DNA of 36,258 nucleotides. It comes from Clostridiaceae bacterium (GTDB taxonomy: Bacteria; Bacillota; Clostridia; Acetivibrionales; DTU013). Position numbers and translations under genes: made by a program. Below are positions 14,307-25,068 of the stretch, one piece after another (positions within the stretch are counted from its first letter, which is position 1; every line of letters starts with the position of its first letter). The stretch spans positions 1 to 36,258 of the forward strand of contig JAAYBT010000019.1 in the NCBI GenBank assembly GCA_012730015.1. The letters run 5' to 3'. A model generated the notes under the pieces. That model saw nothing but the letters and a program-made list of their open reading frames with translations, did no database searches and had not been told where the DNA came from.

Positions 14307-14564
14307 ATGGATTGCATCGCGATAATGGATTCGGGAAATTATGCATTGAAGCTTTGCAGCATACTTGAGAGGAAAGGCTATGTTTTTGAAGTGACGTCGA
14401 CCCCCTGCCAGATTTCAAAAGGCGGATGCAGCTATTGTCTAAGATTCCCACTAGCCTACAAGGAGCTTGTGCTGCAGCAGGCCCATATGAACAATATCAC
14501 AATCAGGGAGATCTACAAAGTAGAGCGGGAAGTAATGAAATACAAATATGTAAAAATATTATAA
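14307..14564 (+). CDS. DUF3343 domain-containing small protein (putative Se/S carrier-like)
   Basis: MDCIAIMDSGNYALKLCSILERKGYVFEVTSTPCQISKGGCSYCLRFP; start moved to ATG 14307. Confidence 0.75.
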   Translation: MDCIAIMDSGNYALKLCSILERKGYVFEVTSTPCQISKGGCSYCLRFPLAYKELVLQQAHMNNITIREIYKVEREVMKYKYVKIL

Positions 14565-14675
14565 TAGTAGCTACAAGATTACTTGCTATGGGAGCGATTT
14601 ATTAGAATGACGTAGATAATAGGAGGCAGAATGAAAAATTCAACGTTCTGTGGGCTTAATTGCTTTTGAGGTTTG

Positions 14676-14704
14676 TTGTTAAACTGGCGCCAAGGTGCTA
14701 TAAT
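14676..14704 (+). promoter_or_regulatory. Sigma-A type promoter upstream of ncRNA candidate
   Basis: TTGTTA-17 bp-TATAAT. Confidence 0.55.
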
Positions 14705-14814
14705 GAAGCTACAGCAAGCGAAACAGTAAGTTTGTACCGCGGGAAATAAGTAATTGAGTTTTGATAAATAAAGAGTTTGCAACCTGAAATGCTCGGATAA
14801 ACCTATTATTTTGA

Positions 14815-15024
14815 ACCTACATTTGAGAAACGGGAGTCCGGCGTTTGATAGTAGATATCAGGCCACAAGCTAATTCCGGCATATGGGTAACCATATGTAT
14901 CGGCGGTGGAAGATTGAATTTGTCGGCAGGACACCCACCTGGCATTGGGCTAGGTGTCAAAATATGGGGGAACGGCTTTTCGGGTTTTAAATGTAAGGGT
15001 GATCTTATTCGATCATCCTTTTTT
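14815..15024 (+). ncRNA. Structured non-coding RNA candidate (family not assigned)
   Basis: Closing stem acctacattt/aaatgtaaggg(t), hairpin gtttgata-gtaga-tatcaggc, GNRA hairpin catatgg-gtaa-ccatatg, hairpin gacacc...ggtgtc, terminal hairpin aagggtgatc/gatcatcctt plus T-run. Confidence 0.6.
14995..15024 (+). terminator. Rho-independent terminator
   Basis: aagggtgatc-ttattc-gatcatcctttttt. Confidence 0.8.
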
Positions 15025-15087
15025 CTATGGTAATTTGCGCGAAGGCCTACATTTCACTGGGTTCTACTGACGCTTAAAACAGGGCAA

Positions 15088-16806
15088 TTACTCCTCGGCT
15101 CCCTGCCACTGTTTAGGCTCCTCCCAATTCTCCCACTCCTGCAGCTTTTCTGGATCGAGGGTAGATCCTGGTGGTGGGTTCTCTTCTTTAGGAGTTTCTT
15201 TAATGATGTCCTCTACTATGATGTCCTCTGCTTTGGTGTCTTCATTTATAGTGTCTTCCTTTATGGTGTCCTCTGCTTTGGTGTCTTCATTTATAACGTC
15301 TTCCTTTATAGTATCCTCTTTTATTGAGTCTTCACTTGTGGTGTTTTCATTTATACTATCATGTGGGAGGCTTTCTTTTTGCGAGACCAACTTTTGCTTG
15401 GCTTCTTCCTTGCACATGATTATTTCCCGGCCTCTTGTGAGTCTTTTATCTTGATTGAGCTGCCTTTTGTTTTGATCTAGTTGATTTTTGACCATGCCTA
15501 ATTGTATCGAATATTTATCAATTTCTTTTTTTAGTTCCAAATATGCGTTGGTAAGCTGGGACATTTCTCTTCTAGCTTCAGTCCACCCTTCTCTTATTTC
15601 CTCGACACTACCCTGTAGCTGGAGGAGAGTGTCGGCTACAAAACGGTTAAGATTTCGCTCGGGGATGTTCGCATTTGAACTATTGACTGAAAAAAGTGAA
15701 GAAGCGCCCCCACGAAGAGAACCGTCCCCTGATAAGAAGAGCAGTCTCAGGCCGTTTGAGAGACTTCCCGGGTATACTCCCGGCGAAAGTGAAGAACCGT
15801 CCCCCCGGAGAGAACCGTCCCCCCGGAGAGAACCGTCCCCGACGAGAGAAGCGTCCCCTTTGATGCGATCGCGGGGGCTGTTGGATTTGTAGCACAGGCA
15901 AAGCAGCTGGCTGCCGGGCTGGTTGCCATAGCGGGATGCCTTGCCCCAGTTACTGCCGTCTTGTGCGCCGCTATTATAATAAACAATGTTTTCGCGAACC
16001 CAGTAGACTATTATATTATCCTGAACTTGTAGTATGGAGGCATTTTCAAAGGAATGAACCGAGGAGTGTATTACTGTTTCGGCGGACCAAAGATTCCTGT
16101 CAGGAGCCTTCTGCTGATATACCATTTCAAAAAGCCTGGGCGTCCGCCTCTGATAACACAAATGTATCACACCGCTGCTGTCAACAAGGGCGTGCGGATA
16201 CTCGCAGTTACCTGCGTATTTAGTCACAGGGATGAAATCACTCCAATGCTTCTGCGCTGCATTGAGCTTTTTATAGCCGATTTGGAGATACTTGCCATCA
16301 TAGGATTGGTAAAAAGCATAAATATTCTGTCCCCGGTCATACACAATTGAGCAGGGCTGGCTGCTTCCAGAGACGTAATCCACTACCTTAGGCGTACTCA
16401 TCCGGAGATCATCGAGAATCTGGTAGGCCAACATAAATGAGTTATCATGTTGCAGGACATAAAAAAAGTAGAGACTGCCACTAAGGGGGGCAAGGTATAG
16501 CTGCTTATCATAGGCGGAGGGTGTCCTGCTATTAAGGACCGAAATGGTCTTTGTCGATTGGCCGTCCAGTCTGGAATAATTGATATTTCCTTTAATATCC
16601 TGAAACAGAATGTGATACACATCATCCTGGTCTATCTCGGCATAAAAATGCCGGTACACATTTTTGTGAAGTACAAATACATTACTCCAGACGCCGGTGT
16701 TTGTTAGTGTGTTGTAACATATGTTTTGCCCGGAATCACAAAAGAAGTTCCATAGCTCGCCGGTGGTCTGCCTGAAAATGAACTGCCTGTTATGAAAATT
16801 AAACAT
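15088..16806 (-). CDS. Beta-propeller-like repeat protein with coiled-coil and acidic repetitive C-terminal tail
   Basis: Repeated YxxxDxxGxxHxxY-like blades, then GDGSLR repeats, then coiled-coil ELKKEIDKYSIQLGMVKNQLDQNKRQLNQDK, then xxEDx repeats; RBS agagagg before ATG 16806. Confidence 0.75.
   Translation of the reverse strand: MFNFHNRQFIFRQTTGELWNFFCDSGQNICYNTLTNTGVWSNVFVLHKNVYRHFYAEIDQDDVYHILFQDIKGNINYSRLDGQSTKTISVLNSRTPSAYDKQLYLAPLSGSLYFFYVLQHDNSFMLAYQILDDLRMSTPKVVDYVSGSSQPCSIVYDRGQNIYAFYQSYDGKYLQIGYKKLNAAQKHWSDFIPVTKYAGNCEYPHALVDSSGVIHLCYQRRTPRLFEMVYQQKAPDRNLWSAETVIHSSVHSFENASILQVQDNIIVYWVRENIVYYNSGAQDGSNWGKASRYGNQPGSQLLCLCYKSNSPRDRIKGDASLVGDGSLRGDGSLRGDGSSLSPGVYPGSLSNGLRLLFLSGDGSLRGGASSLFSVNSSNANIPERNLNRFVADTLLQLQGSVEEIREGWTEARREMSQLTNAYLELKKEIDKYSIQLGMVKNQLDQNKRQLNQDKRLTRGREIIMCKEEAKQKLVSQKESLPHDSINENTTSEDSIKEDTIKEDVINEDTKAEDTIKEDTINEDTKAEDIIVEDIIKETPKEENPPPGSTLDPEKLQEWENWEEPKQWQGAEE
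15200..15360. repeat. 15-bp-period coding minisatellite
   Basis: Degenerate units such as ctttggtgtcttcat/ttatagtgtcttcct encoding [I/K]xEDx pentapeptides on the minus strand. Confidence 0.85.
15700..15860. repeat. Array of GGGGACGGTTCT-type repeats (18-bp period core)
   Basis: gagaaccgtccccccgga repeated at 15793-15855 plus outlying copies at 15700-15730. Confidence 0.85.
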
Positions 16807-21490: not shown

Positions 21491-22441
21491 TTAGTTTTTC
21501 AGACGATACCAGCTGATGAAGCGCTCAATCCCATCCTCCAGCTTTACCTTGGGGCTGTATCCCAATAGGTTTGCCGCTTTGCTGATATTTGCCAATGTTT
21601 TGGGAACATCACCGGGCTGCTGAGGTAAAAACCGGAGATGTGCCTGCCTTTGAAGCTTGCTTTCAATTATCCTTACAAGGGTCAAAACATCGACGGCATT
21701 TGAGTTTCCAATATTCAAAAGCTCAAAAGCACATTTGCAGTCTATGGATGCGACGATTCCATCTACCACATCATCAATATAGGTGTAGTCCCTGGAGCTG
21801 CTTCCGTCGCCGTAAATGCCGACTTCAAGCCCTCGTGAGATGGCCTTTGTAAAGATGTGAATTGCCATGTCAGGTCGCTGCCTGGGGCCGTATACGGTAA
21901 AAAACCTCAGACAGACTGTCGGTATACTATAAAGCTGATGCCAGGTCTTACACAATAGCTCCCCGGAGTATTTGGCGGCGGCATAGGGTGAGGCCTGGCA
22001 GATGAGATTGTTGCTCTCCCTAAAGGGAACCGTGCCGTTGCCGTAGACGGAAGATGAGGATGCAAAAATGAACTTGCTAACCCCATATTTTCTGCAAGCC
22101 TCCAGCATAATGACAGTACCCTTAATATCTGTGTCCACATAATCAAGGGGCGTCAGGATGGAATTCCTTACACCCGCAAGAGCTGCAAGATGCACAAGGA
22201 TATCGATATTATGCTGCTTCATAAGTCGGTCGACCAGGTCGGCGTCGAGTATGTTACCCTCCACAAGTTTGTAGCTTGGGTGCTCAAGTGCGCTGTGCAC
22301 ATTTTCTCTTTTAATTAAGGGATCGTAGTTATCCCGGAAGTTATCCAGACCTATCACATTATAGCCCAACTGCAGCAGCCTTTCACACAAGTGTGAGCCA
22401 ATGAAGCCTGCACTGCCGGTTACTAATATATTGCTCTTCAT
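21491..22441 (-). CDS. NAD-dependent epimerase/dehydratase, UDP-glucuronate 4-epimerase-like
   Basis: VTGSAGFIGSHLCERLL, SPYAAAKYSGE, RFFTVYGPRQRPDMAIH; ATGA overlap with upstream gene. Confidence 0.88.
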   Translation of the reverse strand: MKSNILVTGSAGFIGSHLCERLLQLGYNVIGLDNFRDNYDPLIKRENVHSALEHPSYKLVEGNILDADLVDRLMKQHNIDILVHLAALAGVRNSILTPLDYVDTDIKGTVIMLEACRKYGVSKFIFASSSSVYGNGTVPFRESNNLICQASPYAAAKYSGELLCKTWHQLYSIPTVCLRFFTVYGPRQRPDMAIHIFTKAISRGLEVGIYGDGSSSRDYTYIDDVVDGIVASIDCKCAFELLNIGNSNAVDVLTLVRIIESKLQRQAHLRFLPQQPGDVPKTLANISKAANLLGYSPKVKLEDGIERFISWYRLKN

Positions 22442-25068
22442 TTTTTACCAACTCCTTCATAGTAAAAGCCAAAGCTTCTCACATAATCCGGGTCGTAAAC
22501 ATTGCGCAAGTCCAAAAAAACCGGTTTTCTTACAATGCCTTTTAGAGCGTTGAAGTCCAGACAGGAAAACTCTTCCCATTCGGTTGCTAGTACAATGCAA
22601 TCGCTTTGAGCACAGGCAGAGTACACATCAGTAAAGTATTCCAGACTTAAATCAGGATAACTTTTTTTCATGTTCCCCATGGCTTGTGGATCATAGACTG
22701 CTACAGCAGCCTTTTTTTCTAGAAGCGATGTCAGGACTGTCAGTGAGGGGGATTCGCGAATGTCATCGGTTCCGGGCTTAAATGCAAGCCCCAACACAGC
22801 TATTCTGCGCCCCTCCAAACCATCGAGAGCAGCTTCTATTTTTCCTATCATCCTTTTTTTCTGGCGATTGTTCACTTCAAGCACACCATCCAGAAGCAGG
22901 GGCTCATAGCCGAGACCTCTGCTCAAACCGGTCAGGGCGCGGACATCCTTCGGGAAGCAGCTGCCGCCAAAGCCTGGACCGGGGTTCAGATACTGTAGTC
23001 CAATCCTCTTGTCCAACCCCATTCCCTTAGTAACTGTGCTGATGTCAATGCCGCAAAGCTCACATATATTGGCGACTTCATTAATGAAGCTAATTTTCGT
23101 AGCAAGAAAGCAGTTTGATGCATATTTTATCATCTCAGCCGCCTCAATACTTGTTACAAGCACAGGGATATTAGAATCAATCTGGCTGCGATAGATTTCC
23201 TTTACAATATTTGCTGCCCGGTCATTTTGTGCACCGATGATAATTCTATCGGGGTTTATGAAATCCCCTACGCTTGACCCTTCTCTTAGAAACTCCGGAT
23301 TGGAGACCAGGTCAAAGTCAAGCTTCTCATTTCGCTCCTTCAAAATTTCTGTGATTTCATTTTTTACCCTCATACCGGTGCCTACAGGCACAGTGCTTTT
23401 ATTAACGATGACTTTGTAGCAGCTCATATTTTGAGCGATTTCACGTGCTGCTTCTAATACATGACTGACATCGCAGGTATTGTCCTCGAGGGTTGGAGTG
23501 TTGACGGTGATGAAGATGATATCCGAGCGATTCACAGCGGCTTTAATGTCGCTTGTGAAGTGGAGGCACTTGCGTTTCTTCACACATTCATCTATGATAT
23601 CGTCGAGGGAGGGTTCGAAAATTGGTATTATGCCTCTTCTTAAGCCATTGATTTTTTCCATATCCCGGTCGCAGCAATATACATTCATGCCCATTGATGC
23701 CAGACAGGCTCCTGTCACAAGGCCAACATAGCCTGTGCCTATGATTGAGATGCTTGGCTTGGGCTTAGTCTTCGGTTTCAGCTTGCTTTTGCCGGCTTGA
23801 CGCCGGAGCTTCTTAGTCGAAGCTGAGACACGTATTTCGGGAGCCAGCTTGGCCTGTGCCATGTCAAATGATTTTTTTGGGCCCTGTGTACGGAGCTTCT
23901 CGGGAGGCATTTTGTCCCTTTCTTCCGGCACATATGCTGCAGGAAATATTTCCTCGGCGACTCTCTCCCAGCTAAATCTCTCATCAGCCATTTTTCTGCC
24001 TGCAGCGCCCATATCAAGGGATTTGTTCGGATTGTCCAGCAGATTACAGATTTGCTGAGCCATTACATCAGAGCTATCATACTCATCGATTACAATGCCG
24101 TTGCCGTACCCAGCAATCACTTCTGCATTACCGCCCCTGTTGGTCGTTATAATCGGCAGTCCTGCCGCCATGGCCTCATAGTGGACTCTGGCCAGGGGCT
24201 CGCTCCATTGAGATGCGCAAATAAACAAATCACCAATACTGTAGTAAGCAGGGATATCCGCAGGAGGGATGAAGCCGGTAAAGATAACAGGTCCGGGCAA
24301 ATTCTCCGCATAGCTGCTGATTAGCTTGGTATATTCATCTACATCGTTCTTTCCATACCACTTGCTTCCTACAATGAAAAGAGCGGTATTCTTGTGACTT
24401 TTCATCACGTTGTCCATTGCTCTCAGCAGAACATGGACGCCCTTTTTTATGCTCAGTCTGCCCACATAAAGTACAACCCTATAGTCCTCCAGCCCGTATC
24501 TTTCCTTCATTGTCTGTTTGAGCCGGGCACCCTCCTGTGTCCAGCCGGGATGATATTTCAGCGTGTCAACGCCGGAATAGACCAAACGCATTTTTCCCTC
24601 AGCGGCAGGAAATCTTCCTACAACCGTGTCTGCGATATACTGGCTTACAGTGTTGATGAATTCTGACCTTTCAATACATCTCGAAGCAAGCTCATTTGAT
24701 ATTTTTCCAACATGTAACATTTCGTTATGAAGGCTCAAACTGAATTTAGAATCGGGGAGTCCCTCCGAAAGCGCTAGCAGATATCGGGGACGATTAAATA
24801 CATGGATTAGGTCAAATTCCGGCTTCAATACTGCCTTCAGGTTTCTTACATAGGCAGTGTCCACATTGCCAGCTACTCTGATATATTTGACATTGCCTCT
24901 GGTTTCCTGCTCAGGCAGCGTGGGGTGTTGAATGCTGTAAACTGTAATGTCATGCTGCCTCGATAAATAGGGAAGGATACCGTCTATATATAATTGAATT
25001 GCACCACCGGCAATCGGCGGCATAGGAAGCTTTTCAGTACAAATTAGGGCTATTTTCAAGCTACTCAC
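22438..25068 (-). CDS. Fusion protein: GT4-family glycosyltransferase plus UDP-glucose 6-dehydrogenase
   Basis: N-terminal LYVGRLSIKKGVHVLLRAM...AMAAGLPIITTNRGGNAEVI; Lys/Pro linker KSKLKPKTKPKPS; C-terminal ISIIGTGYVGLVTGACLA...NPGPGFGGSCFPKDVRAL...LGLAFKPGTDDIRESPS. Confidence 0.93.
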   Translation of the reverse strand: MSSLKIALICTEKLPMPPIAGGAIQLYIDGILPYLSRQHDITVYSIQHPTLPEQETRGNVKYIRVAGNVDTAYVRNLKAVLKPEFDLIHVFNRPRYLLALSEGLPDSKFSLSLHNEMLHVGKISNELASRCIERSEFINTVSQYIADTVVGRFPAAEGKMRLVYSGVDTLKYHPGWTQEGARLKQTMKERYGLEDYRVVLYVGRLSIKKGVHVLLRAMDNVMKSHKNTALFIVGSKWYGKNDVDEYTKLISSYAENLPGPVIFTGFIPPADIPAYYSIGDLFICASQWSEPLARVHYEAMAAGLPIITTNRGGNAEVIAGYGNGIVIDEYDSSDVMAQQICNLLDNPNKSLDMGAAGRKMADERFSWERVAEEIFPAAYVPEERDKMPPEKLRTQGPKKSFDMAQAKLAPEIRVSASTKKLRRQAGKSKLKPKTKPKPSISIIGTGYVGLVTGACLASMGMNVYCCDRDMEKINGLRRGIIPIFEPSLDDIIDECVKKRKCLHFTSDIKAAVNRSDIIFITVNTPTLEDNTCDVSHVLEAAREIAQNMSCYKVIVNKSTVPVGTGMRVKNEITEILKERNEKLDFDLVSNPEFLREGSSVGDFINPDRIIIGAQNDRAANIVKEIYRSQIDSNIPVLVTSIEAAEMIKYASNCFLATKISFINEVANICELCGIDISTVTKGMGLDKRIGLQYLNPGPGFGGSCFPKDVRALTGLSRGLGYEPLLLDGVLEVNNRQKKRMIGKIEAALDGLEGRRIAVLGLAFKPGTDDIRESPSLTVLTSLLEKKAAVAVYDPQAMGNMKKSYPDLSLEYFTDVYSACAQSDCIVLATEWEEFSCLDFNALKGIVRKPVFLDLRNVYDPDYVRSFGFYYEGVGKK

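Follow-up and report, generated by a model that had tools for sequence, protein, structure and literature searches.

The stretch of DNA analysed here, a window of 36,258 nucleotides, carries on its forward strand a gene for 6S RNA (ssrS) with its own promoter and terminator (Table 1). Just upstream of it, at 14307-14564 (+), lies a gene of the DUF3343 family (Se_S_carrier, PF11823), whose product is a putative Se/S carrier.

Table 1. Features of the 6S RNA locus in the window.
Feature	Positions	Strand	Basis
Sigma-A type promoter TTGTTA-N17-TATAAT, TG before -10	14676..14704	+	scan; same type upstream of homologues
5' leader of the putative primary transcript	14711..14777	+	promoter and family boundaries
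6S RNA (ssrS)	14778..14990	+	full-length RF00013 match, alignment, homologues
Closing stem P1, 5' strand	14782..14795	+	partner 14973-14985; 96% cells paired; core probability 0.96-0.98
Helix P2, 5' strand (CCU and UUUUGA)	14802..14814	+	partner 14957-14968; 96-100% cells; probability 0.96-0.97
Central bubble, 5' strand	14815..14831	+	near-invariant TTTTGAACCTAC; holds predicted pRNA start
Apical arm: P3, P4, P5, GTAA-loop hairpin (14880-14897)	14832..14936	+	alignment pairing and covariation
3' central-bubble hairpin ACCTGGC/GCTAGGT	14937..14955	+	100% cells paired; probability 0.95-0.98
P2 and P1, 3' strands	14957..14985	+	RNAalifold and alignment pairing
Intrinsic terminator (hairpin 14995-15020 and T-run)	14995..15023	+	scan; pairing probability 0.97

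Elsewhere in the window, an open reading frame (ORF) at 15088-16806 (-), for which no Pfam family was found, contains two kinds of repeats. A dispersed short repeat, GGGGACGGTTCT, at 15718-15858 (strand -), is read in frame as GDGSLRGDGS repeats; the 2.85 Mb assembly contains 102 copies of this sequence, often in arrays with a spacing of ~18 bp, against 0 of its reversed control. A 15/45-bp tandem repeat at 15203-15355 encodes the acidic repeat EDTIKEDTINEDTKAED near the C terminus. Further, a single ORF of 876 aa at 22438-25068 (-) comprises a glycosyltransferase (group 1) domain and a complete UDP-glucose/GDP-mannose dehydrogenase.

6S RNA is widespread in bacteria, where it mimics an open promoter and thereby holds RNA polymerase inactive; members of the family are expected to be abundant and to build up in stationary phase. 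When the complete Rfam 15 library was scanned against the whole window, three matches were obtained, namely 6S/SsrS RNA (RF00013) and two tRNAs at the window end. The RF00013 match spans 14778-14990 (+) and model positions 1-187, i.e., the full length of the model, with 70.9 bits (E 3.2e-12); membership in the family was defined as a score above the curated cut-off, 46.4 bits, over the full model, and the score lies above this value. An initial annotation of this DNA, made from the sequence alone, had described here a discrete, conserved and independently transcribed structured non-coding RNA, neither a 3' UTR nor coding, a description that our results bear out; all the sequences that it quoted were found where it had placed them, and 6S was among the families that it had proposed for an Rfam test. 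It had stated that no family could be assigned, leaving a raiA-type RNA or something new as options, whereas the full-length match assigns the locus to 6S, and the 5' boundary of the RNA lies ~37 nt further upstream than was drawn.

The promoter recognized in that annotation was confirmed by our scan and is conserved upstream of the 6S homologues, nearly all of which are preceded by TTGTTA-N17/18-TATAAT or a close variant. Transcription would start 7 nt after the -10 element, as judged from the promoter and the family boundaries, and the leader (14711-14777) is presumably removed by processing. The distance from promoter to 6S is 71-78 nt in the window and in four of the five aligned members of its family, compared with ~15-30 nt in most other relatives; the leader in this family exceeds that of most relatives by ~55 nt, a mildly unusual trait, and one member of the family (L042) displays the short form. 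The terminator with its T-run, also noticed initially, was equally confirmed.

Helix pairing (as the percentage of alignment cells paired, "% cells") and double changes were scored on an alignment of 38 sequences, in which the closing stem, the central bubble with its 3' hairpin, and a long, strongly covarying apical arm are all kept. Independently, RNAalifold yielded the same 6S architecture from 40 sequences, and none of 200 dinucleotide shuffles folded as well as the region itself (z -3.3). Within the apical arm, P3 is paired in 100% of cells, 2 of its 7 pairs show double changes, and its probability in the window sequence is 0.73-0.81; the corresponding values among the 38 sequences are 93% and 6 of 8 pairs for P4, and 98% and 4 of 7 pairs for P5. 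The apical GTAA-loop hairpin, proposed initially and found to be both real and covarying, is paired in 90% of cells, and each of its 7 pairs shows double changes. The 3' bubble hairpin is nearly invariant, and therefore contributes little covariation despite its 100% pairing. P4 has a low probability (0.12-0.14) in the single window sequence because a local hairpin competes with it. This hairpin, GTTTGATA/TATCAGGC, had been annotated as part of the structure, and it is indeed favoured in the window sequence (P ~0.7); however, it is paired in 78% of cells, compared with 93% for P4 and 98% for P5, which covary more, and it constitutes a local alternative to these two helices. Compared with the RF00013 consensus, the RNA shares the full-length model match, the closing stem, central bubble and apical arm, the length of ~210 nt, and its own promoter and terminator, and differs in nothing essential, its apical hairpin being extended relative to the consensus, as it is in the relatives.

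A 6S match was present in 55 of 60 related genomes, including 5 of the 7 from the same family. Two to four copies occur in several relatives (G022, G023, G029, G034, G038 and G041), and the bubble is clearly divergent in some of these copies, e.g., in L016. The presence of 2-4 copies in some relatives would agree with the locus being a 6S pseudogene or a second, divergent 6S paralogue; nevertheless, the window's own assembly holds a single copy, and a search for a second one found none, with the reservation that the assembly is 87% complete and a second copy could be absent from it. Moreover, every 6S helix is intact, and promoter and terminator are present, so that we regard a pseudogene or paralogue as very improbable.

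A different closing stem, pairing 14815-14824 with 14989-14998, had been drawn around the region in the initial annotation, and with it the RNA could be conceived as a new structured family. The complementary arms do exist, and the alternative minimum-energy fold has a different, closing-stem-like topology over the region. This fold of the whole transcript departs from the 6S structure, which is nonetheless recovered as the centroid of the ensemble, and the deviation illustrates how the drawn stem can look plausible. Against a new family, the stem has a probability of 0.00-0.01 in the window fold and is paired in only 32% of cells in the relatives, its 3' arm is unconserved, and RF00013 spans the region at full length; the 5' arm, CCTACATTT, belongs instead to the central bubble, as a portion of its 5' strand. 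We consequently discard the stem as spurious, and a new family, which the 6S match and the unconserved 3' arm already refute, is scarcely credible. A gacacc/ggtgtc stem drawn in the same annotation did not hold either, since its probability is 0.00 and its bases are engaged instead in two competing helices, GGG/CCC and the ACCTGGC/GCTAGGT hairpin of the 3' bubble, both of which all relatives conserve.

For a raiA-motif (ModT) RNA or another large clostridial RNA, nothing but the host group and the dense structure can be adduced, these being what the window RNA shares with the large structured raiA RNA of clostridia; conversely, the full Rfam 15 scan of the window, whose library presumably includes raiA, gave no match to the raiA covariance model at the Rfam cut-off, and a permissive scan (E up to 1) across 14600-15100 found no family other than 6S reaching its cut-off, its only sub-threshold hit being STnc390 (19.4 bits, cut-off 50), a weak, terminator-like chance match that we rejected, which leaves this option with a negligible probability. 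Equally negligible is a small protein gene of 62 aa at 14845-15033, since the open frame does exist, yet it has no Pfam match and no counterpart in relatives, being interrupted by a stop within 36 codons or shifted by an indel in 35 of 37 aligned relatives, and this want of a conserved frame already refutes it, in line with the non-coding reading favoured initially.

Turning to the function of the 6S RNA, a template for a product RNA (pRNA) is found, at the level of sequence, beside P2 in the 5' bubble, within the near-invariant TTTTGAACCTAC. The bubble strand reads TATTTTGAACCTAC, its last C being C14820, and the register matches that of the template AGUUUUGACCGAAC of B. subtilis 6S-1 RNA, whose pRNA starts at nt 40 and reaches the 14-mer GUUCGGUCAAAACU (PMC8876501). 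As the distance from C14820 to UUUUGA equals that of the B. subtilis start, the pRNA would start at C14820, with GUAGGUUCAAAAUA as the predicted 14-mer, and the predicted pRNAs would begin with GUAGGUUC. In B. subtilis, the small 3' bubble hairpin is already formed in the free RNA, and release is aided by a collapse helix in which the 5' bubble pairs with the 3' strand of P2 (PMC8876501). When 14807-14820 was blocked, mimicking a bound pRNA, P2 was lost (zero) and the collapse helix UUUGA/UCAAA rose from 0.00 to 0.39, which fits a release cycle of the B. subtilis type; this helix is not evident in every relative.

With the integration of these observations, the following cycle can be proposed. 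The RNA would be transcribed from its own promoter and ended by the intrinsic terminator, its 5' end probably being trimmed, and the closing stem, central bubble and apical arm would imitate an open promoter. As its family suggests, the RNA would bind RNA polymerase, sitting in the active site of the housekeeping holoenzyme when nutrients are low. Once nucleotides are back, the polymerase would start at about C14820 and copy the 5' bubble strand into the short pRNA, which would open P2; the released 3' strand of P2 could then pair with the distal 5' bubble in the collapse helix, and the 6S RNA would let the polymerase go. For the binding of polymerase and for the start site, processing and timing, we infer this course by analogy with E. 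coli and B. subtilis. The RNA resembles B. subtilis 6S-1 (bsrA) in its 3' central-bubble hairpin, which is of the Firmicutes 6S-1 type, in the UUUUGA strand of P2 with the pRNA-starting C six bases on, and in the potential collapse helix (PMC8876501); it differs in the predicted pRNA (GUAGGUUCAAAAUA versus GUUCGGUCAAAACU), and in its leader and neighbouring genes.

Among these neighbours, the DUF3343 gene shares the strand of 6S and is located 139-339 nt upstream of it in 22 of the 43 loci analysed, including the window, and is absent in a large family belonging to the order. The named relatives harbouring the gene are clostridial, namely Anaerobacterium chartisolvens and several metagenome assemblies, and in six of those clostridial relatives 6S lies just downstream of it. 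DUF3343 was unmentioned among the best five literature matches for DUF3343 or 6S RNA, and to our knowledge the DUF3343-6S linkage has no known role. That 6S RNA in the window's family may gain a further level of regulation from this linkage or from the long leader seems to us unlikely.

Taken together, our results provide good support for an ordinary 6S RNA gene, of a kind already known, whose family, architecture, promoter and terminator can be read from the DNA itself. We are almost certain that the best explanation as a whole is a clostridial 6S RNA (ssrS) gene with its own promoter and terminator, whose product would imitate a promoter and be released through pRNA synthesis. This gene does not extend the knowledge of RNA families; it illustrates that an unaided reader of sequence is able to find a real 6S gene and yet to misdraw its enclosing stem. 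Useful by-products are the predicted pRNA start, conserved in the order, and the linkage of the DUF3343 gene to 6S RNA.
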